Shown here piece after piece: positions 32,061 through 57,982 of a stretch of 64,000 nt of DNA. Below the pieces are notes generated by a model. It ran no database searches. It was given only the letters and a program-made list of their open reading frames with translations, and was not told the DNA's origin. Every line of letters begins with the position of its first letter. Within the stretch, counting starts at the first letter, position 1. The stretch comes from Flavonifractor sp. An112 (GTDB lineage: Bacteria > Bacillota > Clostridia > Oscillospirales > Oscillospiraceae). The stretch covers positions 1 through 64,000 of the forward strand of contig NZ_NFLU01000011.1 of assembly GCF_002161085.1 (NCBI RefSeq), written 5' to 3'. The position numbers were made by a program, and so were the translations under genes.

Positions 32061-32259
32061 TTACCGCTCCTCCCGGAAATAGGGCAAACCGAGGGAGTTT
32101 GGCGGCTGCTTGACCCCCACGGGACCTGTCCCGCGGGGACCCCCCCCGATTTCTATTTGCGGCCGGGGAAAATGAATTCCCCCGGCCCGCGCGCCAAGGC
32201 GCGTCCCGCCTGCGGCGGGTCCCAAGACAAGCAGCTTTTACACTGGCAATCAATCCGGC
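32061..32259 (-). mobile_element. Gene-end-restoring hairpin insertion at the nucleoside permease 3' end
   Basis: Read on the minus strand: after the permease stop come a 24-bp spacer, a 12-bp sequence (32235-32224) perfectly complementary to permease codons at 32304-32315, several hairpins and then a second copy of the permease 3' end (32061-32112, 16 codons plus TAA). The two ends differ at three codons, all third-position synonymous (Pro, Pro, Tyr). Hairpins include GGCCGGGG/CCCCGGCC around GAATTCATTTT, and a final 11-bp stem after GGGGTCCCCG. The relic end, not the used end, adjoins the native terminator. The unit is 199 bp with no ORF. Confidence 0.7.
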
Positions 32260-33249
32260 TTACCGCTCCTCCCGGAAGTAGGGCAAACCGAGGGAGTTCG
32301 GGGGCTGCTTGTCTTTGCTGTTGCGCAGGGAGGTAAAGATCAGCACGATGACGGTGACCACATAGGGCAGGATCTTGTACAGTTCGTCGGGGATAAAGCC
32401 CAGGTGGAGCCGCTGGTACAGGATCATCAGCGCGCCGAAGAGGATGGAGCCCCAGATGGCGTTGAGGGGCCGCCACAGGCAGAAGATGACCAGGGCAACC
32501 GCCAGCCAGCCCTCGCCGGACAGGGCCTCGTGGTTCCACACGCAGCTGGCGATGGTCATGATGTACACCATGCCGCCGATGGCCGAGATGCCGCCGCCGA
32601 TGACGGTGGCCAGATATTTGTACCGGGTGACGTTGACGCCGGCGGCGTCGGCGGTGGCGGGGGACTCGCCCACCGCCCGCAGGGACAGGCCCGCCCGGCT
32701 CTTATTGAGGAACAGGTGCATCCCCACCGTCAGCACGATGCCCAGGTAGAGGAAGATGCTGTGACCGAAGAGCAGGGGTCCCACCACCGGCAGCTCCTGC
32801 AGGGCCGCCGGGAAGGGGGAATTGAGGAAAACCGCCTTCAGGTCGTTGCTCACCGCCACATAGCCGCCGGAGGTCACCCGCATATACTCGCCGATGAACT
32901 GGCCCGCGCCGGTACCGAAGATGGCCAGGGCCAGACCGGTGACGTTCTGGTTGGCCCGGAGGGTGATGGTGAGGAAGGAGTAGATGAGGGCTCCGATGGC
33001 GCCGCCCAGGAAGGCGAAGAACAAAGCCAGGATGACGGCCAGCACGCCGCTGGTGCCGCCGGCCCCCTCGAAGTAGAAGGCAGCGCCCAGGCCCATGGCT
33101 CCGCCCATGAACATCATGCCCTCCACACCCAGGTTCAGGTTGCCCGCCTTTTCCGACAGGATCTCACCCAGGGTACCGTAGAGCAGGGGCACGCCGTTGA
33201 GAACGGCGGCCATGATCAGGAGCAGGACCGCGTTGCTGTTGATATCCAT
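32260..33249 (-). CDS. Nucleoside/BMP-type ABC transporter permease (NupQ-like)
   Basis: A 329-residue membrane protein of the branched-chain-amino-acid/sugar permease family with about eight to nine helices (for example LLLIMAAVLNGVPLLYGTLGEIL and the VEGMMFMGGAMGLGAAFYF region). It works with the second permease, the double ATPase and the BmpA-like protein. The ATG overlaps the upstream permease stop (TAATG). The last 16 codons are duplicated downstream at 32061-32112. Confidence 0.92.
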   Translation of the reverse strand: MDINSNAVLLLIMAAVLNGVPLLYGTLGEILSEKAGNLNLGVEGMMFMGGAMGLGAAFYFEGAGGTSGVLAVILALFFAFLGGAIGALIYSFLTITLRANQNVTGLALAIFGTGAGQFIGEYMRVTSGGYVAVSNDLKAVFLNSPFPAALQELPVVGPLLFGHSIFLYLGIVLTVGMHLFLNKSRAGLSLRAVGESPATADAAGVNVTRYKYLATVIGGGISAIGGMVYIMTIASCVWNHEALSGEGWLAVALVIFCLWRPLNAIWGSILFGALMILYQRLHLGFIPDELYKILPYVVTVIVLIFTSLRNSKDKQPPNSLGLPYFREER

Positions 33250-34334
33250 TACTTGGCCACCTCCTTATGGCTGCCCCGGAAGATGAGGCGGTAGTTGATG
33301 AAGAACTCACAGCCCAGCATACAGAACAGGAAGATGCCGGTGATGATGTCCGAGATGGAGGCGGGCACAGCCAGCTGGGTCTGGAGGGTATCGGCGCCCT
33401 TGTCCAGCACCGCCAGCAGCACCGAGATGCCCACCATGGCGAAGGGATTGAGCTGGGCCAGCCAGGCCACGGTGATGGCGGTAAAGCCCACACCGGCGGC
33501 CACGCCGGAGTACAGGGTGTTGTCGGCGCCGGAGCAGACGATGAAGCCCACCAGACCGGCGATGGCGCCGGAGAGGAACATGGTCCGCATGATGATCTTG
33601 CCCACGTTCATACCGGCGTACCGGGCGGTGTTCTCGCTCTCGCCGATGACGGCGATCTCATAGCCCTGCTTGGTGTACTTCATGTAGAAGAACATGGCCA
33701 CCGTCAGGACCAGGACGATGATCCAGCCGCAGTGGACCCCCAGCACCTTGGGCAGCACCGCCGCCGAGTCAAACTGGGGAATGATCTGGGAGCCGGGACG
33801 GCCCTCCCAGGGGCCGCCCTGGAGCCACTTCACCACGCCGATCATGATATAGTTCATCATCAGGGTGAACAGGGTCTCGTTGGTGCCCCACTTGGCCTTG
33901 AAGAAGGCGGGCACCAGGGCCCACAGGCCGCCGCAGATGGCGCCGGCCACGGCCATGACCACCAGCAGGGCGGGACCAGGCAGCTTATCCGCCCAGAACA
34001 GTGCGAAGTAGGAGGCGCCCACGGCGCCGGCGGTGATCTGGCCCTCGGCGCCGATGTTCCAGAAGCGCATCTTGAAGCAGGGGGCGATGGCCAGTGCGGT
34101 GCCCAGCAGGGGCACGGCAATCTTTACGGTCTGGCGGATGGCGGTGGGCTTGCCCAGGGAGCCGCCCACCATGGTGCCGAAGGCCCCAAAGGGGTTGTGG
34201 CCCATGAGCAGGAAGATAAGGGCGCTGATGAGGATGGCCGCCAGGAAGGAGGCTCCCCGGATGGCCCACACCTGGCCCTTGGGCATACCGTCCCGCTTGG
34301 CTAGACGGATCAGGGGCGTATTGGATTCATGCAC
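33249..34334 (-). CDS. Nucleoside ABC transporter permease (NupP-like)
   Basis: A 361-residue permease with about nine to ten transmembrane segments (ASFLAAILISALIFLLMG, KIAVPLLGTALAIAPCFKMRFWNIGAEGQI, VGFTAITVAWLAQLNPFAMV). The FKMRFWNIGAEGQ motif is typical of the BMP/nucleoside family. The GTG start is set by GGAGG nine bases upstream and overlaps the ATPase gene by 8 nt. It pairs with the downstream permease. Confidence 0.92.
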   Translation of the reverse strand: MHESNTPLIRLAKRDGMPKGQVWAIRGASFLAAILISALIFLLMGHNPFGAFGTMVGGSLGKPTAIRQTVKIAVPLLGTALAIAPCFKMRFWNIGAEGQITAGAVGASYFALFWADKLPGPALLVVMAVAGAICGGLWALVPAFFKAKWGTNETLFTLMMNYIMIGVVKWLQGGPWEGRPGSQIIPQFDSAAVLPKVLGVHCGWIIVLVLTVAMFFYMKYTKQGYEIAVIGESENTARYAGMNVGKIIMRTMFLSGAIAGLVGFIVCSGADNTLYSGVAAGVGFTAITVAWLAQLNPFAMVGISVLLAVLDKGADTLQTQLAVPASISDIITGIFLFCMLGCEFFINYRLIFRGSHKEVAK

Positions 34335-35916
34335 GGTCCTCTCCCTCCTTTCCGCCGCCCACATGGGTCATGAGCAGGCCCACCTGCTCCTTGGTGGCGG
34401 TGGGTCCGTCCACAATGCCGGACACCTGGCCGCCGCACAGCACCAGAATCCGGTCGCACAGCTCCAGCAGCACGTCCAGATCCTCGCCCACCAGCAGCAC
34501 CGCCACTTCCTTCATCTTCTGCTCGTTGAGCAGCCGGTAAATGGTGTAGGAGGAGTTGATGTCCAGGCCCCGGACGGGATAGGCGGTCATGAGCACGGTG
34601 GGGGTGGAGGCGATCTCACGGCCCACCAGCACCTTCTGCACGTTGCCGCCGGACAGACGGCGCACCGGGGTGGCCACTCCGGGGGTGACGATCTCCAGCT
34701 CGTCAATGAGCTTTTCAGCCAGAGCCTTGGGGGTCTTTCGGTCCACCAGGGGGCCAGGGGTGTCCTTGTAGGTCTTGAGCATCATGTTGTCCACCATGCC
34801 CATGCCCCCCACCAGGCCCATGCCCAGCCGGTCCTCGGGCACGAAGGCCAGGGAGACGCCCACCTTGCGGATCTGGCCGGGGGTCTTGCCCACCAGCTCC
34901 TCCCCCGCCTTGTCCACCGGCACATGGTGGCCGGCGATGTCGCTTTCAGGGTGGGGCGGATAGTAGAAGATGTGGCCGGAGTCCGCCTTCTGCAGCCCGG
35001 CGATGGCCTCCAGCAGCTCCTTCTGGCCGGAACCGGCGATACCGGCGATGCCCAGGATCTCACCGCCGAAGGCCTGGAAGGAGATGTCCTTCAGCACCGG
35101 CAGGCCCTCGCCGTTGCGGCAGTTGAGGCCCTTTACCTCCAGCCGCAGGTCCTTGTACTTGGCCTGGGGCCGGTCGATGTTCAGGGTGACGGCGTGACCC
35201 ACCATCATCTCGGTGAGCTTCTGGGGGTTGGTGTCGCAGGTGTTGACGGTGCCGATGTACTTGCCCTTGCGGAGGACCGCCACCTTGTCGGACAGGGCCA
35301 TCACCTCGTGGAGCTTGTGGGTGATGATGACGATGGCCTTGCCGTCGGCCTTCATGGCCCGGAGGATGTTGAAGAGCCGCTCGGTCTCCTGGGGGGTGAG
35401 GACGGCGGTGGGCTCGTCCAGGATGAGGATCTCAGCCCCCCGGTAGAGCACCTTGACAATCTCCACCGTCTGCTTCTCGGACACCGACATATCATAGACC
35501 TTCTTGTTGGGGTCGATGCCGAAGCCGTACTTGTCGCTGATGGCCTGGACCTGGGCGGCCACCGCCTTGCGGTCGTGCTCCTTCCCCTTCAGGCCCAGGG
35601 CGATGTTCTCGGCGGCGGTAAACACCTCCACCAGCTTGTAGTGCTGGTGGATCATGCCGATGCCGTGGGCAAAGGCGTCCTTGGGAGAGCGGATGGTCAC
35701 CGGCTTGCCGTCGGCCAGAATCTCTCCCTCGTCGGGGAGATAGATGCCGGAGAGCATATTCATCAGCGTGGTCTTGCCGCTGCCGTTCTCTCCCAGCAGG
35801 GAGAGGATCTCCCCCCGGTTGATGGCCAGGTCAATGCCATCGTTGGCCACCACCTTGCCGAAGCGTTTGGTGATGTGCCTGAGTTCAATTGCATGGACAG
35901 GTTCCAAGGCTGTCAT
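34327..35916 (-). CDS. Nucleoside ABC transporter, tandem ATPase (NupO-like)
   Basis: A 529-residue protein with two ABC domains. The first has an intact Walker A (GENGSGKTTLM), VSEKQTVEIVKVL signature region and LILDEPTAVLTP. The second has the degenerate P-loop GIAGSGQKELLEAI and signature RRLSGGNVQKVL, as usual for sugar/nucleoside importers. It energises uptake with the two permeases. Operon order is xpt, bmpA-like, ATPase, two permeases. Confidence 0.94.
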   Translation of the reverse strand: MTALEPVHAIELRHITKRFGKVVANDGIDLAINRGEILSLLGENGSGKTTLMNMLSGIYLPDEGEILADGKPVTIRSPKDAFAHGIGMIHQHYKLVEVFTAAENIALGLKGKEHDRKAVAAQVQAISDKYGFGIDPNKKVYDMSVSEKQTVEIVKVLYRGAEILILDEPTAVLTPQETERLFNILRAMKADGKAIVIITHKLHEVMALSDKVAVLRKGKYIGTVNTCDTNPQKLTEMMVGHAVTLNIDRPQAKYKDLRLEVKGLNCRNGEGLPVLKDISFQAFGGEILGIAGIAGSGQKELLEAIAGLQKADSGHIFYYPPHPESDIAGHHVPVDKAGEELVGKTPGQIRKVGVSLAFVPEDRLGMGLVGGMGMVDNMMLKTYKDTPGPLVDRKTPKALAEKLIDELEIVTPGVATPVRRLSGGNVQKVLVGREIASTPTVLMTAYPVRGLDINSSYTIYRLLNEQKMKEVAVLLVGEDLDVLLELCDRILVLCGGQVSGIVDGPTATKEQVGLLMTHVGGGKEGEDRA

Positions 35917-35972
35917 CCTTCCTGTGATGAGACGTGGGTGGGTGCTTTACGGGATTTCCCGGGAAAGGACAG

Positions 35973-36002
35973 AAAAGAGGGCTGCGTGTGCAGCCCTCTT
36001 TT
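35973..36002 (-). terminator. Terminator-like hairpin between the binding protein and ATPase genes
   Basis: A 12-bp stem with GTGT loop and T-runs on either strand. On the minus strand it ends the binding-protein transcript, allowing higher expression of the binding protein than of the membrane components. Confidence 0.75.
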
Positions 36003-36014
36003 GGGTTAAGGTCA

Positions 36015-37280
36015 TCAATAGGCGGAGTTGAGCCACTCGATGCCGTCGATCTGCACGGTGAAGTAAGGCGCAGACTGGAAGTAGGACTCATGGAAAGCGC
36101 CGTCAAACACGGCCTCCTGGTCATCGGCCACGAAGTCGCCGTCGGTATCCAGGGCCATGCAGGTGGTGAGGGGCTGGCCCTCCACAGTGAAGGTGGAGGT
36201 GTCAAACACCTGCAGCTCGCCGGAGCGGATCTGCTCCTCCACCTCGGCCAGCTTCTCAGCGGTGCCCTCGGCGGCGATATCCTCGTTCAGGGGAGTCATG
36301 ACCACGGCGCCCTCGTCCATACCGTGGCACCAATCCTGGTCAAAGGGCTGGCCGTTGGCCACAGCCTCGATGGCGTACTCAAAGTACACAGACCAGTCGA
36401 TGCGGGTGCCAATGAGGGAGGAATCGGGAGCCACGGAGATCATGTCGTTGTTGTAGCCGGTGTGGAAAGCGCCGTTGTTCTGAGCGGCGGTGGCGGGGGT
36501 GGTGTTGTCGGAGTGCTGGGAGATCATGACGCAGCCGGCGTCGCACAGAGCCTGGGCGGCGTTGCCCTCCTCAGAGGCGTCGGACCAGGAACCCACGAAC
36601 TGGACCTTCATGGTCACGCTGGGGCACACGCTCTTGGCGCCCAGGTAGTAGGCGGTAAAGCCGGAGATCACTTCGGCGAAGGAGTAGGCGCCCACATAGC
36701 CGATGACGGCCTGGTCGGCGGTGATCTCGCCGTTGTCGATCATCTCCTGGAGCTTCATGCCGGCCACCACGCCGGCCAGGTAACGGCCCTCATAGATGTT
36801 GGCGAAGGCGTTGTGGGTGTTGTCCAGGCCGTCGTTCCAGGAAGCCTGGTTGGTGCAGGCGATGAACTCGATCTCGGGGTAGTCGGGAGCCACCTTCAGC
36901 ATGAAGGGCTCAAAGCCGTAGGAGTTGTTGATAATCAGGTCGCAGCCGGCCTCGGCCAGCTCGATGTTGGCGTCCTCACAGGAGGAGTCCTCGCCGATGT
37001 TCCACTTGACCTGCCAGTCCACGGTGATGCCCTTGGCGGCCAGCTTCTCGGTGACGGCCTCCTTGCCGCGGATGAAGTTGTAGGTGTAGCCCTGGTCGTT
37101 CTCGTCGCCGATACAGATCAGGCCCACCTTGACAGTCTTGCCCTCACCAGAGGGGGTCTCGGTGCTGCCGGAGACGGTTTCACCGCCGCCGGGGGTCTCG
37201 CTGCTGCCGCCGCCGCAGGCAGCCAGGCCCACCATCATGGCGCCGGCCAGGAGCAGTGCAAGCAGTTTTCTCTTCTTCAT
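36015..37280 (-). CDS. BMP-family nucleoside-binding lipoprotein
   Basis: A 421-residue substrate-binding lipoprotein: signal with lipobox GLAAC at about residues 18-22, Ser/Gly/Thr linker, then the BMP/Med domain (KVGLICIGDENDQGYTYNF, CDLIINNSYGFEPF, AVIGYVGAYSFAEVISGFTA). It captures purine nucleosides for the adjacent ABC transporter. AAAGGAGG precedes the ATG. It is separated from the ATPase gene by a terminator-like hairpin. Confidence 0.92.
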   Translation of the reverse strand: MKKRKLLALLLAGAMMVGLAACGGGSSETPGGGETVSGSTETPSGEGKTVKVGLICIGDENDQGYTYNFIRGKEAVTEKLAAKGITVDWQVKWNIGEDSSCEDANIELAEAGCDLIINNSYGFEPFMLKVAPDYPEIEFIACTNQASWNDGLDNTHNAFANIYEGRYLAGVVAGMKLQEMIDNGEITADQAVIGYVGAYSFAEVISGFTAYYLGAKSVCPSVTMKVQFVGSWSDASEEGNAAQALCDAGCVMISQHSDNTTPATAAQNNGAFHTGYNNDMISVAPDSSLIGTRIDWSVYFEYAIEAVANGQPFDQDWCHGMDEGAVVMTPLNEDIAAEGTAEKLAEVEEQIRSGELQVFDTSTFTVEGQPLTTCMALDTDGDFVADDQEAVFDGAFHESYFQSAPYFTVQIDGIEWLNSAY

Positions 37281-37331
37281 GTCCAAGTTTCCTCCTTTGA
37301 TCCACAAAATCTTCCATTCTTTCCTTCAAAA

Positions 37332-37353
37332 CAGCCTGCTTCCCTACAGGCTG
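37332..37353 (-). other. Hairpin in the xpt-binding protein spacer
   Basis: A 7-bp stem CAGCCTG/CAGGCTG followed on the minus strand by TTTT: a weak attenuator or partial terminator between xpt and the binding-protein gene. The 119-bp spacer holds no purine-riboswitch core. Confidence 0.45.
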
Positions 37354-37399
37354 GTCTGAACACACAAAGGGGCCACAGCGCACCCTATACGGCGGATGT

Positions 37400-37972
37400 T
37401 CAGCAGAACTCCACGCCGTCCTCTACACTCATACTCTTAATTCTCGCAAGAGATTCCACCCGCACGCCCATGCCGCGGATCAGGTCGCCGCCGGGCTGGA
37501 AGGCCTTCTCCACGGCGATACCGGCGCCCACCAGGGCAGCCCCGGCGTCCCGCACCAGCTTGATGAGGCCCTGGAGGGCAGAGCCGTTGGCCAGGAAATC
37601 GTCAATAATGAGCACCCGATCCTCGGGCAGCAGGAACTGCTTGGCCACAATGATATCGTACACCTTGCCGTGGGTGAAGGACTCCACCTTGGAGGTGTAC
37701 ACGTCGCCGGCGATGTTCTTGGTCTTGTTCTTCTTGGCAAAGATCACCGGGCAATCAAAAAACTGCGCGGCCACACACGCGATCCCGATCCCCGATGCCT
37801 CGATGGTCAAAATCTTGGTAACCCCGCAGTCCTTGTACAAACGCAAAAATTCCTTACCCATTTCCTGAAACAGCTTGACATCCATCTGATGATTGAGGAA
37901 GCTGTCCACCTTCAGCACGCCGCCTTCCCGAATGATGCCGTCGGTGCGGATGCGATCTTCCAGCAATTTCAT
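37400..37972 (-). CDS. xpt: Xanthine phosphoribosyltransferase
   Basis: A 190-residue purine salvage enzyme converting xanthine and PRPP to XMP. The PRPP-binding motif VLIIDDFLANGSAL, the N-terminal DSFLNHQMD segment and ASGIGIACV are characteristic. It is first in the run with the nucleoside importer, linking uptake and salvage. Promoter TTGCAG-17-TACAAT lies directly upstream. Confidence 0.95.
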   Translation of the reverse strand: MKLLEDRIRTDGIIREGGVLKVDSFLNHQMDVKLFQEMGKEFLRLYKDCGVTKILTIEASGIGIACVAAQFFDCPVIFAKKNKTKNIAGDVYTSKVESFTHGKVYDIIVAKQFLLPEDRVLIIDDFLANGSALQGLIKLVRDAGAALVGAGIAVEKAFQPGGDLIRGMGVRVESLARIKSMSVEDGVEFC

Positions 37973-38004
37973 ATCGCCGTCTCCTTAACAAAAAATTCAT
38001 TTTT

Positions 38005-38033
38005 ATTGTATCGAATTCTGCATCCCTCTGCAA
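38005..38033 (-). promoter_or_regulatory. Promoter of xpt
   Basis: On the minus strand TTGCAG (38033-38028), 17-bp spacer, TACAAT (38010-38005), 33 bp before the ATG. No purine riboswitch aptamer is evident between promoter and start. Confidence 0.65.
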
Positions 38034-38142
38034 CCGACCATATTCTATCAAAAAACAGCGTTCTCGTCACCCCTTTTTATTCATTTTGTCTGATATATGT
38101 AGGTTTTTTTCTGCCCCCGCCTGGGAGGCCCTCCGTTTTTCG

Positions 38143-38171
38143 TTGTACTTTGCCTGCTCCTTTGTTAAAAT
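38143..38171 (+). promoter_or_regulatory. Promoter of the SLH-GH18 gene
   Basis: TTGTAC (38143-38148), 17-bp spacer, TAAAAT (38166-38171), 57 bp before the ATG, which follows AAAGGAGG. Confidence 0.6.
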
Positions 38172-38227
38172 AATAGATGTCAGACCCAATTCCCTGTTTT
38201 ACCCATGATAAAGGAGGTCTTTTTTTC

Positions 38228-39883
38228 ATGAAGCGCCGGATCTGTGCGGCGGCTCTCACCGCCGTTTTACTGCTTTGCGCCGCACCCCTCTCCCCCGCCG
38301 CCCGGGCCTTTTCTGATACCAGCGGCCACTGGGCCCAGGCCGACATTGACAAGGCCCGGGATTACGGCCTGATGGAGGGCTACCCCGACGGCCGGTTCGG
38401 CATCGGCGACGACATCACCCGGGCGGAATTTGTCACCGTCCTGTGCCGGATGTTTGACTGGGACATGATCTCCCCGTCCTCCCCCTCCTACATAGACTGC
38501 GGCACCAGGGAGTGGTACTACTCCGCCGTGGAGACCGCCCGGGCCCACGACGTGATGGACCCCAACGGCGCCTTCCGGCCCCTGGATCTCATCAGCCGGG
38601 AGGAGATGGCGGTGATGCTGGTCCGGGCCCTGGGGTACGACACCCTGGCCCAGGACCTGTCCTCCCTGTCCCTCCCCTTTGACGATGTGAAGAGCAACGC
38701 GGGCTACATCGCCATTGCCTATGACATCGGCATGATCAAGGGCGTCACCGGCCCCAACGGACAGCTCAAGTTCCTCCCCTCCCACTCGGCCACCCGGGAG
38801 GAGGCCGCCGCCATGCTGGTGCGGGTATATGAGCGGTATATCTCCAAGGTGGACTGGCTCCACGGCTTCTACGCCTTCTCCTCCTATTCCCAGATCAACC
38901 TGACCGCCGATATGGACGCCGTCAGCGTGGGCTGGGCCCGGCTGGAGTACGGCGAAAATGGCCCCACCCTCAACTCCACCAGCACAAACGGCAACGACTG
39001 GGTGAAACCCTCCGATCCCACCCCCGCCACCGACTACTTTACCAGCCACGGGGTAGACTACAACCTGTGTGTCTTTGGCTCGGCCACCGACTCGGTGACC
39101 CTGGCCGACGGCTCCACCACCTCCACCGTGGCCGCTGTGGTCAACAACTCCAACGCCCGGGCCCAGGCCATTGACGCCCTGGTGGCCGCCGCCGGGGACT
39201 ACGCCGGCCTCACCATCGACTTCGAGGGGCTGAAGGGGGATACCATAAAGAAAAACTATGTCACCTTTATGAAGGAACTGCGGGCCGCCCTGCCTGACAA
39301 CAAGACCCTGTATGTGTGCGTCCAGCCCGACACCTGGTACACCGGCTTTGACTACCGGGGCCTGGGTGAGATGTGCGACAAGGTGATCCTCATGGCCCAC
39401 GACTACCAGTGGACCTCCATCCCGGAGTCCTACGTGGGTACCGGCAATACCGACTCCCCCGTCACCCCCATTGCCAGCGTGTACGAGGCCCTGCGGGATA
39501 TCACCGATCCGGATACCGGCGTCCGGGATGTGAGCAAGATCGCCCTGGCCATCTCCTTCGGCACCGCCGGGTTCCACATCGATGAGGAAGGAAAACTCCT
39601 GGACACCACCATCTACCACCCCGGCGCCTCCACCCTGGCCGCCCGGCTGGCCCAGCCGGACACGGTGGTGACCTACAGCGACAAGTACCGCAATCCCTGC
39701 GCCATCTACACCAATGAGGAGGGCGAGAGATACAAAGTGTGGTATGAGGACGCCCGCAGCGTGGCGGACAAGCTCCAGCTGGCCAGGATGTTCGGCATTA
39801 CCGGGGTATCCCTGTGGCGGGTGGGCACCATCCCCGCCAGCAGCGGATACGACGTGTGGAGCGCCGTCCAGGCCGCCCGATGA
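38228..39883 (+). CDS. SLH-anchored GH18-type glycosidase/spore germination YaaH-like protein
   Basis: A 551-residue secreted protein. The signal peptide ends near PAARA; three SLH domains follow (SDTSGHWAQADIDKA, DCGTREWYYSAVETA, DVKSNAGYIAIAYDIG), then a GH18 barrel at about 220-550. The catalytic strand reads GLTIDFEGLKG, with the acid Glu, and later MAHDYQW matches the active-site Tyr/Asp region. It is expected to cut chitin-like or peptidoglycan glycans at the cell surface. Upstream in-frame ATGs have no ribosome site. Confidence 0.88.
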   Translation: MKRRICAAALTAVLLLCAAPLSPAARAFSDTSGHWAQADIDKARDYGLMEGYPDGRFGIGDDITRAEFVTVLCRMFDWDMISPSSPSYIDCGTREWYYSAVETARAHDVMDPNGAFRPLDLISREEMAVMLVRALGYDTLAQDLSSLSLPFDDVKSNAGYIAIAYDIGMIKGVTGPNGQLKFLPSHSATREEAAAMLVRVYERYISKVDWLHGFYAFSSYSQINLTADMDAVSVGWARLEYGENGPTLNSTSTNGNDWVKPSDPTPATDYFTSHGVDYNLCVFGSATDSVTLADGSTTSTVAAVVNNSNARAQAIDALVAAAGDYAGLTIDFEGLKGDTIKKNYVTFMKELRAALPDNKTLYVCVQPDTWYTGFDYRGLGEMCDKVILMAHDYQWTSIPESYVGTGNTDSPVTPIASVYEALRDITDPDTGVRDVSKIALAISFGTAGFHIDEEGKLLDTTIYHPGASTLAARLAQPDTVVTYSDKYRNPCAIYTNEEGERYKVWYEDARSVADKLQLARMFGITGVSLWRVGTIPASSGYDVWSAVQAAR

Positions 39884-51499: not shown

Positions 51500-51534
51500 C
51501 CCGAGATTTTGTGCATATATGACTAAGTTAAGCA

Positions 51535-51563: not shown

Positions 51564-51588
51564 AATCTTGTATGTCGGGAGTGAACCT

Positions 51589-52332
51589 ATGTCCACAGCA
51601 ATCGTTATCACTTCAGGGAAAGGCGGCACAGGAAAGACCTCCCTCACCGGCGGCGTAGGCTCCTGCCTGGCCGCTCTGGGACATCAGGTCCTGTGCATCG
51701 ATATGGATATCGGCCTGAGGAACCTGGACCTGAATCTGGGCCTCAGCGACCGGGCCCTGATGGACTTTACCGACGTGCTCTGCGGACGCTGTCCGCTGGA
51801 GCGGGCGGCAGTCCCCCACCCGGTGATCCAGGGTCTGAACCTGATCACCGCACCGGTGAACCTGCCCGACGAACCCCTCAGCGAGTACGCCATGCGGGAT
51901 CTGGTCCGCCAGGCCAAGCAGAAGTACGACTATATTTTGATGGACTCCCCCGCCGGACTGGGCGAGGGCTTCCGGCTGGCCTGCTGTGCCGCGGACCGGG
52001 CCATCGTGGTCTCCACCACCGATTCCTCCGCCCTGCGGGACGCACAGCGCACCGTGTCGGTGCTGCGCAAACAGCTGCCCCAGCTCCACCTGGTGGTCAA
52101 CCGGGTGCAGCCCAAGCTGCTGCGGCGGCTCCACACCACCATTGACGACGCCATGGATACCGCCGGTCTGCCCCTGCTGGGCATCGTGCCGGAGGACCCC
52201 CAGGTCATCCTCAGCGCCAACCGGGGAGAACCCCTCATCCTGTGCGCCAGCCGAGGGGCTGCCATCGCCTACTTAAACATTGCCAAGCGGCTGACGGGAC
52301 AAAAAGTCCCCCTGATGAAGCTTCGAGCCTGA
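51589..52332 (+). CDS. MinD/ParA-family ATPase (septum-site determining MinD-like)
   Basis: 247 residues with deviant Walker A SGKGGTGKTSLTGG, MinD-type DMDIGLRNLDLNLGL and MDSPAGLGEGF motifs. It would be a membrane-cycling ATPase acting in division-site placement. The C-terminus (KRLTGQKVPLMKLRA) is short and lacks an obvious amphipathic membrane helix. No minC or minE is adjacent; in many Clostridia MinCDE precede mgsA, so this could be the remnant of that gene order. Confidence 0.82.
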   Translation: MSTAIVITSGKGGTGKTSLTGGVGSCLAALGHQVLCIDMDIGLRNLDLNLGLSDRALMDFTDVLCGRCPLERAAVPHPVIQGLNLITAPVNLPDEPLSEYAMRDLVRQAKQKYDYILMDSPAGLGEGFRLACCAADRAIVVSTTDSSALRDAQRTVSVLRKQLPQLHLVVNRVQPKLLRRLHTTIDDAMDTAGLPLLGIVPEDPQVILSANRGEPLILCASRGAAIAYLNIAKRLTGQKVPLMKLRA

Positions 52333-52359
52333 TATCTCGAAAGGAAGAGAAGGTGTAGT

Positions 52360-52776
52360 ATGAATATCGCGTTGATGAGCCACGATCGAAAAAAAGAGCT
52401 GATGGTGCAATTCTGTATTGCGTACTGCGGCATCCTGTCCAAGCACACGATCTGCGCCACCAACACAACAGGCCGTCTGGTGGCGGAGGCTACCGGTCTG
52501 CCCGTCCAGCTCTTCCTGTCCCATGAGCACGGCGGCAGCCAGCAGATCGGCGCCCGCATTGCCTACAATGAGATCGATATGGTGCTCTTCTTCTCCGATC
52601 CTCAGTCCAGCGATCTGGACGCGGACCTGAAGTATATCACCCGCCTGTGCGACCAGTACAATATCCCGGTTGCCACCAACGTGGCCACCGCTGAGATGTT
52701 GATCCACGGTCTGGAGCGGGGGGATTTGGACTGGAGAGACATCATCAATCCCAAGACCAAGCCTTTTACTGCATAA
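52360..52776 (+). CDS. mgsA: Methylglyoxal synthase
   Basis: 138 residues. It converts dihydroxyacetone phosphate to methylglyoxal, bypassing lower glycolysis under phosphate limitation. Signature segments: IALMSHDRKKELMVQF, ATNTTGRLV, GGSQQIGARIA and MVLFFSDP with the catalytic Asp, then NIPVATNVATAEML. Length is normal. The final 20 codons are duplicated 155 bp downstream beyond an inserted element, with only synonymous differences. Confidence 0.94.
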   Translation: MNIALMSHDRKKELMVQFCIAYCGILSKHTICATNTTGRLVAEATGLPVQLFLSHEHGGSQQIGARIAYNEIDMVLFFSDPQSSDLDADLKYITRLCDQYNIPVATNVATAEMLIHGLERGDLDWRDIINPKTKPFTA

Positions 52777-52931
52777 ACCGCAAAGTATCGCCCCGCTCCA
52801 GCACGCCGCCCTCGGCGGCCGCATTTGAAATCACAGGGGTCCCCGCACGATGGGTACCATCGGGTGGGGCGCGGGGCGATTTGGACTGGAGAGACATCAT
52901 CAATCCCAAAACCAAGCCTTTTACCGCGTGA
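52777..52931 (+). mobile_element. Gene-end-restoring hairpin insertion at mgsA 3' end (short form)
   Basis: After the mgsA TAA come a 14-bp spacer, CCCCGCTCCAG (52791-52801; perfect complement of mgsA 52711-52721), hairpin GCCGCC/GGCGGC (52805-52819), AAATC, GGGGTCCCC (52836-52844) and the terminal hairpin (CGATGG 52848-52853 / CCATCG 52857-52862) ending GTGGGG. Then a second mgsA end (52871-52931) follows. Copies 52716-52776 and 52871-52931 differ at GGG/GGC, AAG/AAA, ACT/ACC, GCA/GCG and TAA/TGA, all synonymous. The relic end abuts the native terminator. 155-bp unit, no ORF. Confidence 0.7.
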
Positions 52932-52936
52932 TCTGA

Positions 52937-52966
52937 AACGGGCGGCCCCTGTGGGCCGCCCGTTTT
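52937..52966 (+). terminator. Native terminator of mgsA, beyond the insertion
   Basis: A 12-bp stem (52937-52948/52953-52964) with CTGT loop and T-rich tail, six bases after the stop of the relic mgsA end. Confidence 0.88.
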
Positions 52967-52990
52967 ATTGCCGGAAAGCGTGGAAAAGGA

Positions 52991-53019
52991 TTGACTTTTC
53001 CCCCTTTTCGGGATAATAT
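52991..53019 (+). promoter_or_regulatory. Promoter of the hisS T-box leader
   Basis: TTGACT (52991-52996), 17-bp spacer, TAATAT (53014-53019). Confidence 0.75.
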
Positions 53020-53025
53020 CGTAAG

Positions 53026-53262
53026 AGCTGAAACCGCAATGACGGAGCAAGTACCGCTCACACCGCCGCACCAGAGAAGGGTCCCCTGGCTGGAAGGACC
53101 TGCGGCAGGCGGCCGGGAGACGGCTCCACCAGCGGGCCCGGAGACGGGCGCGGTCCCCTTCCCGCAACAGAAGGCCAGAGGGCGCTTTTTGAGCGCCGAA
53201 CATGGGTGGCACCACGAAAGCAGGCGCTTTCGTCCCGTGACAAGGGACGAGAGCGCCTTTTT
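53026..53262 (+). ncRNA. T-box leader for hisS
   Basis: The region between promoter and hisS start has T-box hallmarks: an AGTA bulge region near 53049-53052, CTGGAAGGACC stem-I sequences near 53090, a stem GGCGCT/AGCGCC (53181-53196), the T-box/antiterminator sequence GGGTGGCACCACG (53204-53216) and a terminator (53223-53236/53244-53257, five T). It would sense uncharged tRNA-His. A CAC triplet near 53130 may be the specifier, but I did not fold stem I. It now directly precedes a truncated hisS start, with the functional hisS after an insertion. Confidence 0.82.
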
Positions 53263-53305
53263 GCGGACATCCGCCCTCACCGAGCCAGAATCCCAAATGT
53301 TACGA

Positions 53306-53512
53306 TACAAAGGAGCATCACTATGGCCCAGATCAAACCCCGTACCCTGTCCGGCTTTATGGAGCTGCTGACCCCAGCGGGTCGGTGACCCGCCGGGGGC
53401 CCCGGATTTGATTCAAATAGGCCGAACTGAATTCGGCCTATTTCAAGGTTTTGCTGCGCAAAACGCTTGACGCCGCACTTGCGGCGTTGGCAGGCAGCAG
53501 CCTCTATTACTC
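53306..53512 (-). mobile_element. Gene-end-restoring hairpin insertion at hisS 5' end
   Basis: A 65-bp segment holding the ribosome site and first 16 hisS codons occurs at 53306-53370 and again at 53513-53577, with one difference (GGC/GGT, synonymous). Between them, read on the minus strand from the functional gene: 11-bp spacer, GCTGCTGCCTGCC (53501-53489, perfect complement of hisS 53571-53583), hairpins ACGCCGC/GCGGCGT, GTTTTGC/GCAAAAC flanked by CAAGC and CCTTG, a 12-bp stem around GAATTCAGTTC, AAATC, GGGGCCCCCG, and a 12-bp terminal stem ending CTGGGG. The relic copy adjoins the native T-box. 207-bp unit. Confidence 0.7.
53323..53388 (+). pseudogene. Relic hisS start (21-codon upstream ORF)
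   Basis: ATG plus 16 hisS codons, then five codons from the inserted element and TGA. It has a good AAAGGAG ribosome site and follows the T-box directly, so it is probably translated as a short peptide ahead of the functional hisS. Confidence 0.75.
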
Positions 53513-53529
53513 TACAAAGGAGCATCACT

Positions 53530-54879
53530 ATGGCCCAGATCAAACCCCGTACCCTGTCCGGTTTTATGGAGCTGCTGCCTGCCCGCCAGGTGCAGTTCGA
53601 CCGGATGGTGGACATCCTCCGCAAGAGCTACTCCCTCTACGGCTTCACCCCCCTGGATACCCCGGCCATCGAGGCCAGCGAGGTGCTGCTGGCCAAGGGC
53701 GGCGGCGAGACCGAGAAGCAGATCTACCGCTTCACCAAGGGTGACAGCGACCTGTCCCTCCGCTTTGACCTGACCGTGCCTCTGGCCAAGTACGTGGCCC
53801 TCCACCAGAACGAGCTCACCTTCCCCTTCCGCCGGTTCCAGATCGGCAAGGTGTACCGGGGTGAGCGGGCCCAGAAGGGCCGCTACCGGGAGTTCTATCA
53901 GGCCGACATCGACGTCATCGGCGACGGCGCCCTGGACATCACCAATGAGGCCGAGATCCCCTCCATCATCTACAAGACCTTCACCGCCCTGGGCCTGCGC
54001 CGCTTTAAGATCCGGGTGAACAACCGGAAGGTCCTCAACGGCCTCTTCGCCCTGCTGGGCCTGGAGGAGCAGGCCGGGGACGTGATGCGCACCATCGACA
54101 AGCTGGAGAAGATCGGCCCCGAGAAGGTGAAGGCCATCCTGGTGGACGACTTTGCCGTGGCCGCCGACACCGCCGACACCCTGCTGGGCCTGCTGGCGGC
54201 TGAGGACCCCATGGCCGCTCTGGAGCCTTTCAAGGGCAGGAACGAGCTCTTCGACCTGGGCGTGTCCGAGCTGGAGACCGTGGTCAAGTATATGTCCGCC
54301 TACGGCGTGCCGGAGGACCACTTCATGGTGGACCTGACCATCGCCCGCGGCCTGGACTACTACACCGGCACCGTGTATGAGACCGTCATGCTGGACCACC
54401 CCGAGGTGGGCTCCATCTGCTCCGGCGGCCGGTACGACAACCTGGCCGAGTACTACACCGACAAGCAGCTGCCCGGCGTGGGCATCTCCATCGGCCTGAC
54501 CCGGCTGTTCTCCGTGCTGGAGGCCCAGGGCTACCTGAACGAGGAGCTGCTCACCGCTCCCGCCGACGTGCTCATCCTGCCCATGACCGAGGACCTGTCC
54601 GCTGCCATCTCCTTCGCCACCACCCTGCGGGATGCCGGCGTCCGGGCCCAGCTCCACTGCGAGAAGAAGAAATTCAAGCAGAAGCTGTCCTACGCCGACA
54701 AGCTGTCCATCCCCTACGCCGCCTTCCTGGGTGAGGACGAGATTGCTCAGGGTAAGGTGACGGTGAAGGATCTGACCACCGGCGAGCAGCAGACCGTGAC
54801 TCCCGCTGAGGCGGTGGCTCTGGTCCAGGCCGGTCTCACCGCCCGGTCCGCCGGCGCTCCCATCCGGGACAAGGACTGA
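53530..54879 (+). CDS. hisS: Histidyl-tRNA synthetase
   Basis: A 449-residue class II synthetase. Motif 2 is FRRFQIGKVYRGERAQKGRYREFYQ; the His-specific motifs RGLDYYTGTVYE and SICSGGRYDNL are present, with an anticodon-binding domain from about residue 340. The ATG at 53530 follows AAAGGAGCATCACT. Its own 5' end is a duplicate of the relic start at 53323, and the T-box now lies more than 260 bp upstream across a hairpin-rich insert. Confidence 0.96.
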   Translation: MAQIKPRTLSGFMELLPARQVQFDRMVDILRKSYSLYGFTPLDTPAIEASEVLLAKGGGETEKQIYRFTKGDSDLSLRFDLTVPLAKYVALHQNELTFPFRRFQIGKVYRGERAQKGRYREFYQADIDVIGDGALDITNEAEIPSIIYKTFTALGLRRFKIRVNNRKVLNGLFALLGLEEQAGDVMRTIDKLEKIGPEKVKAILVDDFAVAADTADTLLGLLAAEDPMAALEPFKGRNELFDLGVSELETVVKYMSAYGVPEDHFMVDLTIARGLDYYTGTVYETVMLDHPEVGSICSGGRYDNLAEYYTDKQLPGVGISIGLTRLFSVLEAQGYLNEELLTAPADVLILPMTEDLSAAISFATTLRDAGVRAQLHCEKKKFKQKLSYADKLSIPYAAFLGEDEIAQGKVTVKDLTTGEQQTVTPAEAVALVQAGLTARSAGAPIRDKD

Positions 54880-54950
54880 ATGGAACTTTCCCCCTTTCAA
54901 GCCGTCTATAAAAGACAAACCTGTGCCATTTGACAAGGAGGAATCATTCC

Positions 54951-55880
54951 ATGAAAAAGCTTGCCGCTCTGATCCTGTCCGCCGCCCTGTTGGTGGGCTC
55001 CGCCGCCGCCATCTCCCCCGAGGAGGCCTTCCCCAAGGTCAACGAGTACCCCGGCTTCATTGATGTGGAGGCCGGTTCCTGGTATGAAGATCCCGCCCGC
55101 ATCTGCGCCGAGGTGGGACTGATGCAGGGCACGGGCCACGCCTTTGCCCCCTTCCAGATCCTCACCGTGGGCGAGGTGGCCGCCATCGCCGCCCGCATGA
55201 ACGAGGCCATCACCGGAGACCCTATCCCCATGGCCACTCCCAAGCCCGGCGAGACTCTGCCCTGGTATTTCTCCTATGTGAAGTACCTGGAGGACCTGGG
55301 CATTGACGTGCCCGACCCGGAAAAGCAGGCCACCCGTCAGGAGTTTGTGTCCATCCTGGCCGCTGTGGTGCCCGAGGAGATGCTCTCCCCCATCAACACC
55401 ATCACCACCCTGCCCGACACCAAGGACGAGGCCGTGCTGCGCTTCTACAACGCGGGCATCCTCACCGGCGTGGACGACTGGGGCACCTTCGCTGCCAATA
55501 ACAGCCTGACCCGTGCCGAGACCGCCGCCATGGTGGCCCGTGTGGCCCGCACCGACCTGCGCCAGACCTTCACCCCCGCCGACTACACCCCCTTCACCGC
55601 CGCCGGACTCAAGCCCTCTGACGTGCTGTTCACCAACGGCACCACCGCCGGGGCCTATCTGCCCTATGTGCAGGAGCTCATCGACGGCCTGGAGGCCGAC
55701 TGCGCCGCCGCCGGCATGGAGTTCAACTGGTTCAACACCGTGGACGGCGTCACCTTCCTGGACTACGTGAAGAACACCGCCCTCACTCACTTCGGTGTCA
55801 CCGCCAAGGAGGGCACCGAAGCGTACAAGAACTTCGACGTGCAGGTGTACTACAGCAAGGTCATCGACCTGCGGGGTTAA
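54951..55880 (+). CDS. Secreted SLH-domain protein
   Basis: 309 residues. The signal peptide ends near GSAAA; SLH-like domains follow: YPGFIDVEAGSWYEDPARI, ATRQEFVSILAAVVPEEML and DDWGTFAANNSLTRAETAAMVARVAR. The C-terminal ~90 residues (GAYLPYVQELIDGLEADC to YYSKVIDL) resemble a helical SurA-N-type segment. It is an intact paralogue of the broken gene at 48970. GGAGG precedes the ATG. Cell-surface function, specific role unknown. Confidence 0.82.
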   Translation: MKKLAALILSAALLVGSAAAISPEEAFPKVNEYPGFIDVEAGSWYEDPARICAEVGLMQGTGHAFAPFQILTVGEVAAIAARMNEAITGDPIPMATPKPGETLPWYFSYVKYLEDLGIDVPDPEKQATRQEFVSILAAVVPEEMLSPINTITTLPDTKDEAVLRFYNAGILTGVDDWGTFAANNSLTRAETAAMVARVARTDLRQTFTPADYTPFTAAGLKPSDVLFTNGTTAGAYLPYVQELIDGLEADCAAAGMEFNWFNTVDGVTFLDYVKNTALTHFGVTAKEGTEAYKNFDVQVYYSKVIDLRG

Positions 55881-55953
55881 TTGCAAACAAGGGCAAAAAC
55901 CCAGCTATTTTGTAATATAGAAAAGAAATAATACAATCTGGAGTTGATTTCAC

Positions 55954-57747
55954 ATGGCTAATGTCAAAACCGCCTACCGCACCCACACCTGTGGGGAGCT
56001 CCGCATGGAGCAGGTAGGCCAGACCGTCACCCTGGCGGGCTTCCTGGAGAACTTCCGTGAGGTGGGCGCCAGCCTGGGCTTCGCCGTCCTGCGGGACTTC
56101 TACGGCACCACCCAGGTGGTGGCCGAGACCGAGGAGATGGTCAAGACCATCAAGGCTCTGAACAAGGAGTCCACCATTGCCGTCACCGGCGTGGTGCGGG
56201 AGCGTGACTCCAAGAACCCCAAGCTGCCCACCGGCGACATTGAGGTGGTACCCGAGAAGATCGAGGTGCTGGGCCGCTGCCGCCACAACGAGCTGCCCTT
56301 CCAGATCAACCGCAGCCGTGAGGCCGACGAGACCCAGCGTCTGAAGTACCGCTACCTGGATCTCCGCAACCCCGCCGTCAAGAACAACATCATCCTCCGC
56401 TCCCAGGTGGTGGCCGCCCTGCGGCAGGCCATGACCGCCCAGGGCTTCATGGAGATCACCACCCCCATTCTGACCGCCTCTTCTCCGGAAGGCGCCCGTG
56501 ACTACCTGGTGCCCAGCCGCAAACACCCCGGCAAGTTCTACGCCCTGCCCCAGGCTCCCCAGCAGTTCAAGCAGCTGCTGATGGCCTCCGGCTTCGACAA
56601 GTACTTCCAGATCGCCCCTTGCTTCCGGGACGAGGACGCCCGCGGCGACCGCTCCCCCGGCGAGTTCTACCAGCTGGACATGGAGATGGCCTTTGCCGGT
56701 CAGGAGGACGTGTTCGCCGTTCTGGAGCAGGTGCTCCCCCCCATCTTCGCCCAGTACGGCACCTACAACGTGGCCTCTGAGGCCCCCTTTAAGCGAATCT
56801 CCTACCTGGAGGCCATGGACAAGTACGGCTCCGATAAGCCCGACCTGCGCATCGACCTGACCGTCACCGACGCCACCGAGGTGCTGGCAAACTGCGGCTT
56901 TGGTCCCTTCGAGGGCAACACCGTCAAGGCCATCGTGGTGTCCGGCTTTGAGGGCACCCGCAAGCAGATCGACGGCATCTGCAACGAGGTGGAGGTCCAG
57001 TCCGGCAATAAGGCCTACTGGTTCCGCCTGGATGAGAAGGGCGAGATCGTGGGCGGCATCGCCAAGTTCGTCCAGCCCATCAAGGACGCCGTGGTGTCCG
57101 CTCTGGGCCTGGAGCCCGGCTGCTTCGTGGGCCTCACCGCCGGCAAGCTGCTGACCGCCCAGAAGACCGCCGGCGTGCTCCGCTCCAAGCTGGGCGCCTT
57201 CTGCCCCAACCACATGGACAAGGAGCGCTATGAGTTCTGCTGGATCGTGGACTTCCCCATGTACGAGATCGGCGAGGAGTCCGGCGAGTTGGAGTTCTGC
57301 CACAACCCCTTCTCCATGCCCAACGGCGGCCTGGAGATCCTGAAGAAGGCCGCTGCCGGCGAGGTGGACCCCCTGTCCATCACCGCCTTCCAGTACGACC
57401 TGGTGTGCAACGGCGTGGAGCTGTCCTCCGGCGCCGTCCGGAACCACGACCCCGAGATCATGATTGAGGCCTTCCAGCTGGTGCGGCTGGGCGAGGAGGA
57501 CGTGAAGGCCAAGTTCCCCGCCATGTACAACGCCTTCACCTACGGCGCTCCCCCCCACGCGGGCATCGCCCCCGGCGTGGACCGTATGGTCATGCTGCTG
57601 GCCGGCGAGGACTCCATCCGTGAGATCATCCCCTTCCCCATGAACAAGAACGCCCAGGACCTGATGATGGGCGCGCCTTCCTTTGTGACCGACGCCCAGC
57701 TCAACGAGCTGAACATCGTGTGCACCAAAAAGGAAGAGGACGAGTAA
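55954..57747 (+). CDS. aspS: Aspartyl-tRNA synthetase
   Basis: A 597-residue bacterial-type AspRS: N-terminal OB fold (RTHTCGELRMEQVGQTVTLAGF), catalytic motifs RYLDLRNP, QAPQQFKQLLM, CFRDEDARGDRSPGEFYQLD and GIAPGVDRMVMLLAG, and a GAD insertion in between. Either discriminating (Asp) or Asp/Asn specific. TGGAG precedes the ATG. The last 25 codons recur 235 bp downstream after an insertion; the used end reads KKEEDE, the relic end KKEDEE. Confidence 0.96.
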   Translation: MANVKTAYRTHTCGELRMEQVGQTVTLAGFLENFREVGASLGFAVLRDFYGTTQVVAETEEMVKTIKALNKESTIAVTGVVRERDSKNPKLPTGDIEVVPEKIEVLGRCRHNELPFQINRSREADETQRLKYRYLDLRNPAVKNNIILRSQVVAALRQAMTAQGFMEITTPILTASSPEGARDYLVPSRKHPGKFYALPQAPQQFKQLLMASGFDKYFQIAPCFRDEDARGDRSPGEFYQLDMEMAFAGQEDVFAVLEQVLPPIFAQYGTYNVASEAPFKRISYLEAMDKYGSDKPDLRIDLTVTDATEVLANCGFGPFEGNTVKAIVVSGFEGTRKQIDGICNEVEVQSGNKAYWFRLDEKGEIVGGIAKFVQPIKDAVVSALGLEPGCFVGLTAGKLLTAQKTAGVLRSKLGAFCPNHMDKERYEFCWIVDFPMYEIGEESGELEFCHNPFSMPNGGLEILKKAAAGEVDPLSITAFQYDLVCNGVELSSGAVRNHDPEIMIEAFQLVRLGEEDVKAKFPAMYNAFTYGAPPHAGIAPGVDRMVMLLAGEDSIREIIPFPMNKNAQDLMMGAPSFVTDAQLNELNIVCTKKEEDE

Positions 57748-57982
57748 AGCGCCCATCATCAGGGGGCCCCGCACAGCGGGGCGCGCTTTGCGCGTACAAG
57801 CGTTTTCGCCTGTGGCGAAAACCTTGGCGCAGGCGGAATTCACTTCCGCCGAGCAAGTAAAATCATCCCTGGGTCCCCGGACAGCCCAGGCTGTCCGGGA
57901 TCTGGGCGCTCCCTCCTTCGTCACCGACGCCCAGCTCAACGAGCTGAACATCGTGTGCACCAAGAAAGAGGACGAGGAATAA
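57748..57982 (+). mobile_element. Gene-end-restoring hairpin insertion at aspS 3' end
   Basis: One base after the aspS TAA lies GCGCCCATCATCAG (57749-57762), the perfect complement of aspS 57661-57674. Hairpins follow: CCCCGC/GCGGGG, GCGCGC/GCGCGT, GTTTTCGCC/GGCGAAAAC flanked by CAAGC and CCTTG, GGCGG/CCGCC around GAATTCACTT, then AAATC, GGGTCCCCG and an 11-bp terminal stem. The relic aspS end (57904-57982) differs from 57669-57747 at ten bases, all third codon positions (eight synonymous, two Glu/Asp). The native terminator follows the relic. 235-bp unit, no ORF of its own. Confidence 0.7.

Follow-up and report, generated by a model that had tools for sequence, protein, structure and literature searches.

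How did the borders of four genes on one contig of Flavonifractor sp. An112 come to be duplicated around a set of hairpins that is preceded, each time, by a short stretch complementary to its own point of insertion? The loci, in a permease gene, an mgsA-like gene, hisS and aspS, lie in a window of 64,000 nt (the whole stretch of DNA that was analysed). The original prediction gave them a single architecture, and re-reading all four confirmed it, with coordinates nearly as proposed: a used copy of the gene border (copy A), a spacer, the junction-complementary stretch or guide, a hairpin scaffold and a second copy (copy B). The units measure 155-235 bp and, as had been claimed, show no ORF of their own. 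Their parts are listed here, the first base of J2 being +1.

32260..32311, minus strand: permease copy A of the gene end, used and contiguous with the gene (49/52 identical to copy B)
32224..32235, minus strand: permease junction-complementary stretch, 12 nt, -4..+8
32113..32223, minus strand: permease hairpin scaffold and terminal stem (model R1 match 32113-32221, E 7.7e-8)
32061..32112, minus strand: permease copy B of the gene end, not contiguous with the gene
52716..52769, plus strand: mgsA-like gene, copy A of the gene end (52/54 identical to copy B)
52791..52801, plus strand: mgsA junction-complementary stretch, 11 nt, -5..+6
52802..52870, plus strand: mgsA short scaffold with one hairpin, GAAATC, GGGGTCCCCG and terminal stem (no R1 match)
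52871..52924, plus strand: mgsA copy B of the gene end
53513..53577, minus strand: hisS copy A of the gene start, used, with the element antisense to hisS (64/65 identical)
53489..53501, minus strand: hisS junction-complementary stretch, 13 nt, -6..+7
53371..53488, minus strand: hisS hairpin scaffold and terminal stem (R1 match, E 1.4e-18)
53306..53370, minus strand: hisS copy B of the gene start, adjoining the leader
57668..57747, plus strand: aspS copy A of the gene end, used (71/81 identical to copy B)
57749..57763, plus strand: aspS junction-complementary stretch, 15 nt, -8..+7
57764..57902, plus strand: aspS hairpin scaffold and terminal stem (R1 match 57777-57902, E 1.8e-25)
57903..57982, plus strand: aspS copy B of the gene end, followed by a terminator-like hairpin

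Two parts of the prediction need qualification. The duplication of a gene end holds for permease, mgsA and aspS, but the antisense hisS element duplicates the start of its gene, namely the ribosome site, the ATG and 16 codons. Likewise, the covariance model R1 recovers the permease, hisS and aspS inserts as one family with common motifs, but not the mgsA insert (at E<=1), which is without hairpins h3 and h4 and is a putative member only by its architecture, its GAAATC and GGGGTCCCCG motifs and its terminal stem. The host genes carry BPD_transp_2 (permease), MGS (mgsA-like, Pfam) and tRNA-synt_2 (aspS) domains, hisS was likewise identified, and no common function is evident among the four from their domain identities.

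A patchy family with a stretch complementary to its own site

Model R1, built from the insert, was searched against the source genome, genomes of the same genus and the order. It gave 29 matches in the source genome (E<=1.7e-6), 8-62 copies in each of 20/20 genomes of the genus (own included) and a patchy set of matches in 22/245 genomes of the order (E<=1e-6), so that the family extends well beyond the four loci. Flavonifractor plautii ATCC 29863 has matches to the scaffold pattern, and one copy (L174) lies in a phage terminase large-subunit gene. Places in the source genome with weak matches to h4 only, taken as possible autonomous copies, gave a single weak match (L178) when scanned. Relatives of the G030 type resemble short palindromic repeats of the REP/BIME kind. 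No Rfam family reached its gathering threshold in the window; at E<=1, five loci gave 14 weak matches, all below the family cut-offs, with no intron family and nothing relevant among them. No described counterpart appears in the titles and abstract beginnings that made up the literature searched, which agrees with the earlier view that no described class combines these features, and the family is, as far as these sources go, so far unnamed.

The prediction that further copies would carry a stretch matching their own host gene was largely borne out. We parsed 144 copies from the best-scoring R1 matches, a subset of all copies. A direct duplication was found in 131. Of these, 12 were set aside as artefacts or internal units, 11 having their border at the limit of the search and one being a run of N, which leaves 119/144 with a long direct duplication and a plausible border. 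Once 26 had been dropped that lacked a duplication, had a border outside -4..+26 or were duplicates, 118 were usable for the guide count, and 109/118 carry a stretch complementary to the junction at which they are inserted (score at least 8), with a longest perfect run of median 12 nt (range 4-20). Re-paired combinations of guide and target reach this score in about 17%, a rate inflated by the orthologous sites among them. The guide lies between copy A, the copy on the side of the gene body, and the hairpins, and its target is the junction on the far side of copy A, which stays intact. From copy A to copy B the units span about 155-350 bp (median 225), of which the scaffold takes about 110 nt; in the common architecture the hairpins end adjoining J2, and the border with copy B is variable over one to a few bases. 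Some units stand in tandem (e.g. L030, L094).

These sites look coding. The target-side flank scores as coding (>0.3) in 116/117 copies, a score reached by 0.3% of shuffles and by 33/115 of the stretches beyond copy B. Most copies (105/117) lie in the sense orientation near the 3' end of the gene, hisS and 11 others being antisense, and in 48/118 the end of the duplication falls between -3 and +8 nt relative to the stop codon.

Comparison with strains that lack the insert was made at two loci, and at both the predicted join was found: the sites are empty and joined at the predicted junction in 12/16 aspS loci and 10/13 permease loci read in relatives. The aspS gene has been hit at two different positions (G000/G006/G002 vs G017). 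Where the element is shared, guide and target change together: in 79 orthologue pairs, which share species and hence are not independent, 38/68 differences in the target have a fully compensating change in the guide, vs 0/68 when guides are swapped, and in L013/L098 vs L146 guide and target have both been replaced wholesale. Identity between orthologues is 0.877 in the hairpins, 0.824 in the terminal stem, 0.627 in the spacer and 0.582 downstream. The nearest relative of an orthologous copy is its orthologue in 53/71 cases, a pattern as compatible with vertical inheritance as with exchange among strains. Within the 118-copy set no pair from different sites exceeds 92% scaffold identity, and we thus see no recent jump.

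Main hairpins that pair almost without G-U

In an alignment fitted to the model's structure, 98.6% of hairpin cells are paired, and two-sided changes number 319 vs 101 in shuffles, with 0/500 shuffles as high. The two main hairpins are almost exclusively Watson-Crick, with 9 G-U cells in variable pairs by hand count from the table. In the terminal stem G-U pairs are not rare: the first pair of the outer helix is U-G in 45/89 rows, possibly through misplacement of the border. Mismatches in the guide are G-U in 29/151 cases vs 16% expected, and are not enriched. Since G-U pairs are nearly absent from the main hairpins and not enriched among guide mismatches, pairing as RNA is not indicated, though it may occur. 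The comparison with intron EBS-IBS pairing made in the original prediction holds for the complementarity across the junction, but on the same grounds remains an analogy only. The Watson-Crick bias is at most compatible with transposition through single-stranded DNA; it could also arise if palindromes are corrected from a template, with no function at the DNA level.

Another explanation needs no dedicated enzyme: template switching during replication would spread the hairpin-rich sequence and keep it perfect, since it writes inverted repeats locally, among them the guide and the two arms of each stem. Changes in the main hairpins do affect both arms with almost no intermediates, and the wholesale co-change of guide and target would also be expected. 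We nevertheless think this very unlikely in view of the single architecture of 109/118 copies, with hairpins ending at J2, the conserved bases of loops and linkers and the coding-like flank at nearly every junction. There is similarly little probability that the units are cis-acting RNA structures of the 3'-UTR, whose guide would stabilise or regulate the mRNA by pairing with its coding end, and that the duplication is no more than the scar of an old insertion. The sense bias, the conservation of guide and hairpins in place and the duplications ending around the stop codon speak for this; the nearly Watson-Crick-only main hairpins, the many empty sites in close relatives, the antisense copies and the lack of an evident common function among the four host genes of the window speak against it.

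Two copies of the gene border

The prediction also held that copy A, the one in use, was brought in by the insert, a claim that sequence comparison leaves unproven. The permease copy A differs at 3 of 52 positions from its own copy B and at 3 from the empty gene of G002, and at 8-11 from the other nine empty relatives compared. At aspS either copy can be closer to the gene end of another species than to its partner, and the copies are mosaics of such ends. Given these distances and mosaics, the data decide neither for a copy A that was carried in nor for a local duplication. The identity of the two copies was discarded as a clock of insertion: at one site they are identical in L021 and diverged in L120, with scaffolds 0.99 identical.

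Differences between copies A and B are rich in synonymous changes, with 278 S and 83 N in 98 copies (a codon count that skips L147) and a neutral expectation of 24% S. The dN/dS between orthologues is 0.106 for B-B vs 0.084 for A-A, and changes in the B lineage comprise 70 S and 19 N. These figures, with the prevalence of sense copies, are what would be expected of an intron-like RNA element that splices J1 to copy B, with the guide bridging the exon junction like a splint and both gene ends translated. Yet copy B is broken by a premature stop in L028 and by frameshifts in L147 and (read by eye) in the G005 permease, holds a second element in L012/L118/L055/L142, and is absent from L010, L029, L031, L049, L023 and L041; no broken copy A was found among the copies read. 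At differences between A and B close to the junction, the guide matches A in 30 cases, B in 10 and neither in 8, some of these being border artefacts. The synonymous pattern can moreover be produced by exchange with functional alleles, as the aspS mosaics indicate. Because the readable broken or lost copies were copies B, and because of these mosaics, we favour splicing less; with the antisense copies and the lack of an Rfam intron match also against it, we consider it rather improbable.

Candidate mechanism and relation to known systems

We tentatively favour a family of small, non-autonomous, site-specific hairpin elements that act as (single-stranded) DNA and are moved by a trans-acting enzyme, with RNA-guided insertion and RNA splicing as serious competitors. 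Each unit would comprise a gene-end copy, about 12 nt that perfectly repeat the insertion junction in inverted orientation, and the conserved hairpin array with its terminal stem. The enzyme would recognise the hairpins in single-stranded or extruded DNA, while the complementary stretch would pair with the junction and place the cut between J1 and J2, much like the end guides of IS200/IS605, though longer and with a sequence particular to its site. After insertion the gene would end in one copy, the other lying downstream; since J1-J2 is regenerated, the site would stay a target, which would explain tandem units and precise loss. Exchange among strains may add to their spread. In its strongest form, which is possible but doubtful, this would be a programmable mobile element with a common scaffold and a putative enzyme, its guide rewritten from each target, and its insertion would duplicate the gene end so that the gene stays complete.

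No candidate enzyme is common to all genomes with copies in our censuses of Y1 transposases, reverse transcriptases and IscB. The Y1 transposase (PF01797) occurs in 10/20 genomes of the genus and 5/9 near-complete ones, and is absent from G013 (62 copies), G014 and G018, all 99% complete. RVT_1 was detected in 7/20 genomes and in 7/9 near-complete ones; the 13/20 in which it was not found are mostly 75-89% complete, but include G005 (99%, 26 copies) and G011 (92%, 11 copies). Classification covered the two reverse transcriptases of the source genome, and both were judged unrelated: one is a DRT4/6-like defence enzyme, and the other, in a phage-like locus with a generic reverse transcriptase as best PADLOC match, was read as diversity-generating. 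The RRXRR domain of IscB (PF14239) had no match in 20 genomes, 13 of them of the genus, in a search run without a positive control.

This census bears on RNA-guided insertion. Here a transcript of the unit would pair through its 5' stretch with the coding strand at the junction, and once the DNA had been nicked there the RNA would be copied in, as in a natural prime editing or target-primed reverse transcription that yields a long duplication. Such a process would suit a compact RNA-like fold of several hairpins with the guide at its 5' end, complementarity that spans the junction, variable bases at the scaffold/copy-B border, long variable duplications, and the frequency of RVT_1 in near-complete genomes. 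Against RNA-guided insertion stand the absence of RVT_1 from G005 and G011, the nature of the source genome's own enzymes, the lack of RRXRR matches in a search without a positive control and guide mismatches without G-U enrichment, and we judge it unlikely; it also leaves unexplained how the guide comes to fit a new site.

Known systems each share part of this design. IS200/IS605 elements have hairpin ends that act in single-stranded DNA, where a short guide beside the hairpin pairs with the site of cleavage; small derivatives lacking an ORF exist, and insertion is not known to duplicate the target. Our units resemble them in hairpins, junction-complementary guide, small size and lack of an ORF, but differ in a guide of about 12 nt or longer that varies from site to site, in the duplication of the gene end and in the absence of Y1 from half of the genus genomes. 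Group I and II introns and the hydrolytic ribozymes derived from group II (HYER) also contain an internal stretch complementary across the insertion junction; here, in contrast, the target is duplicated, the scaffold is short and matches no Rfam intron, the main hairpins hold little G-U, and RVT_1 was not detected in 13/20 genomes, 2 of them near-complete. The guide RNAs of IscB/Cas9-type systems (HEARO/omega RNA) likewise place a 5' guide before a compact hairpin scaffold, but the guide here is the complement of the junction at which its own unit is inserted, no Rfam family reached its threshold in the window, and no RRXRR protein was found in the search without a positive control. Like REP/BIME and other short palindromic repeats, the units are small, palindromic and non-coding and occur in many copies per genome; they differ from these in the site-specific complementary stretch, the duplication and the placement in coding ends. 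As with integrases such as that of e14 in icd, the host gene stays intact through a copy of its end; our units, however, are too short for an integrase and encode none, the displaced copy remains nearby, and the same scaffold is used at many different genes.

The elements would confuse the annotation of gene ends, and their enzyme is a concrete search target. Even if they prove to be a passive hairpin repeat, an inverted repeat that co-changes with its target, together with gene-end duplication on this scale, is absent from the titles and abstract beginnings searched. If the complementary stretch does place the cut, they would be a natural and very small guided insertion system in gut bacteria, in which each well-preserved copy would carry a guide to its own site, giving many examples per genome from which its rules could be learned.

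Distribution of the elements and their empty sites

Searches of this and related genomes bore out the original proposal that the inserts belong to a family and are not accidents. With the aspS insert as query, 11 further genomic sites were matched at E≤1.5e-5, not counting the insert and its copy A of the gene end. R1, a covariance model built from 15 inserts, matched 29 places at E≤1.7e-6, including the permease, hisS and aspS loci; the mgsA locus was not among the R1 matches in this genome. All 20 same-genus genomes, its own included, contained R1 matches (8-62 copies each, E≤0.01), as did none of five from other genera of the family and one of 15 from other members of the order in that sample. 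In a wider draw of 245 genomes from the order, 22 had matches at E≤1e-6 under stricter filters. Among the matches listed, the scaffold (hairpin) pattern in named records was mostly from Flavonifractor and Pseudoflavonifractor, with Intestinimonas, Oscillibacter and others also present. The genome G030 holds a related hairpin family (L043, L068-L086; 86 matches, tandem arrays), also matched in G054, G073 and G117 of the same genus; these relatives have the core in common, and most of the 13 loci printed are arrays without gene-end duplication.

In relatives without the insert, aspS runs continuous across the predicted junction; of 16 loci that could be read (20 genomes surveyed, three without a match; one of 17 loci unreadable), 12 are empty. 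The site is occupied in G000, G006 and G002, and a different aspS site in G017. The permease site is occupied in G000, G005 and G019 and empty in 10 of 13 loci read, 7 of 20 being unreadable with the probes used. The family also reaches phages, since a copy lies at the end of the terminase large-subunit gene of a viral contig (L174, 1130-1486) that also encodes head, sheath and baseplate proteins. The two gene ends at this copy show 2 differences over 95 positions, and the guide, read by eye, is about 18 nt. Searches of 50,697 phage and 72,556 plasmid records gave partial matches in three of the former and, among the latter, on one large Vescimonas replicon.

Architecture and complementarity of the guide to its junction

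The four loci of the window, with the differences between copy A (contiguous with the gene body) and copy B (beyond the hairpins), are:

permease locus: branched-chain-type permease gene; 3/52 differences
mgsA locus: MGS-domain protein gene; 2/54 differences
hisS locus: histidyl-tRNA synthetase gene; 1/65 differences
aspS locus: aspartyl-tRNA synthetase gene; 10/81 differences

The single architecture proposed for them holds as to order, which is at all four gene body, J1/J2 junction, copy A, spacer (0-24 nt), junction-complementary stretch (the guide), hairpins, terminal stem and copy B, but not as to placement, the hisS unit being antisense and at the start of its gene rather than the end.

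Parsing of the fetched loci gave 144 copies, 131 of them with an apparent direct duplication; without 11 whose border fell at the limit of the search and one run of N, 119 remained, of which 118 distinct copies were used. The guide, just 5' of the hairpins, was complementary to the copy's own junction (score ≥8) in 109/118, versus about 17% when guides were re-paired with other targets; orthologous sites raise this control value. The Watson-Crick fraction is 87-95% between -3 and +6 (first base of J2 = +1) and at least 60% over -5 to +9, and declines outside; the longest perfect run has a median of 12 nt (range 4-20, n=109).

In the shortest copies the scaffold is reduced to two hairpins and the terminal stem. 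In 90 aligned copies (89 distinct), predicted pairs are kept in 98.6% of cells and both sides have changed 319 times, versus 101 in shuffles, the alignment having been fitted to the model. In the two main hairpins, nine cells of the variable pairs are G-U by hand count; the terminal stem is richer in G-U, one border pair being U-G in 45 rows. Tandem units (copy A, guide and hairpins repeated) occur at single genes in L094, L035, L144, L124 and L030. Beside apparent tRNA genes, L011 and L202 have a long terminator-like palindrome in place of the terminal stem.

By a codon-position test, 116/117 J1 flanks scored as coding (>0.3), versus 0.3% of shuffled flanks and 33/115 stretches beyond copy B. 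Orientation was sense in 105/117 and antisense in 12/117, among them hisS, at a gene start. Sense copies reach a stop codon 19-111 nt further on (median 64), within the aligned duplication in 89/105. No copy was noticed in which the order is mirrored and J1 falls outside the gene.

Divergence of the elements and the second gene end

Scaffolds at different sites were at most 92% alike in the set compared. Among 71 copies having an orthologue, the nearest scaffold was the orthologue's in 53 and not in 18, and the nearest terminal stem in 45. Orthologue identity was 0.877 for hairpins, 0.824 for the terminal stem, 0.627 for the spacer and 0.582 downstream. Guide and target change jointly. In 79 orthologue pairs, 38 of 68 target differences were paired in both members, a further five in both with G-U, 21 in one only and four in none; the guide differed opposite an unchanged target in 154 further cells. 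L013/L098 differ from L146 at five target bases and at the guide base opposite each.

Differences between copies A and B are mostly synonymous (278 versus 83 nonsynonymous, 98 copies), as are changes assigned to B (70 versus 19), and orthologue dN/dS is 0.106 for B-B and 0.084 for A-A. This synonymous excess may indicate that copy B is translated, which would require splicing of the transcript. However, the joined B frame stops together with that of A in 83/100 copies (some of the other 17 are perhaps misframed), and clear reading-frame breaks, among those readable, are all in B. Some copies A are as near to the alleles of other genomes as to their own B, or nearer: aspS copy A of G000 differs at 2/60 positions from the empty gene of G001 and at four from its own B, that of G006 at one from G015 and three from its own B, and permease copy A at 3/52 from its own B and likewise three from the empty gene of G002; in G002 itself, aspS copies A and B are identical over the compared stretch. 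The synonymous pattern can thus also come from swapping gene ends with working alleles found in other strains, and we consider splicing improbable. A second small element, beginning like TGGGAMCCCA and finishing near GACGAC/GACGAG, lies inside copy B of two different genes in several genomes (L012, about 262-387; L055, L118, L142, L035).

Candidate enzymes, mechanism and novelty

The reverse transcriptase domain RVT_1 occurs in 7/20 genus genomes (7/9 of the near-complete ones) and is absent from near-complete G005 and G011, which carry 26 and 11 copies of the element; its distribution thus neither demonstrates nor excludes a requirement for reverse transcriptase. The Y1 transposase (PF01797) is present in 10/20 (5/9 near-complete), and IscB had no match in the genomes searched, in a search that had no positive control. 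At L053, two partial coding stretches that resemble each other, apparently pieces of one gene, flank a DRT4/6-like defence reverse transcriptase; the reverse transcriptase of L054 is in a phage-like locus near a repeat resembling a diversity-generating retroelement.

G-U is nearly absent from the main hairpins and not enriched among guide mismatches (29/151), which points to DNA-DNA pairing or templated correction rather than RNA. An intact J1-J2 beside its complement, units in tandem, empty sites in relatives and targets in coding sequence are consistent with a site-specific element that would recognise its junction through its own complementary stretch.

No Rfam family matched, and searches of the open-access full-text literature, itself only part of the whole, brought up no description of an element of this sort. 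We know of no nameable class in which a complementary stretch unique to each site goes together with a shared hairpin scaffold and gene-end duplication, and on this ground regard the hairpin elements as a new kind by their combination of features, each of which separately has precedents.
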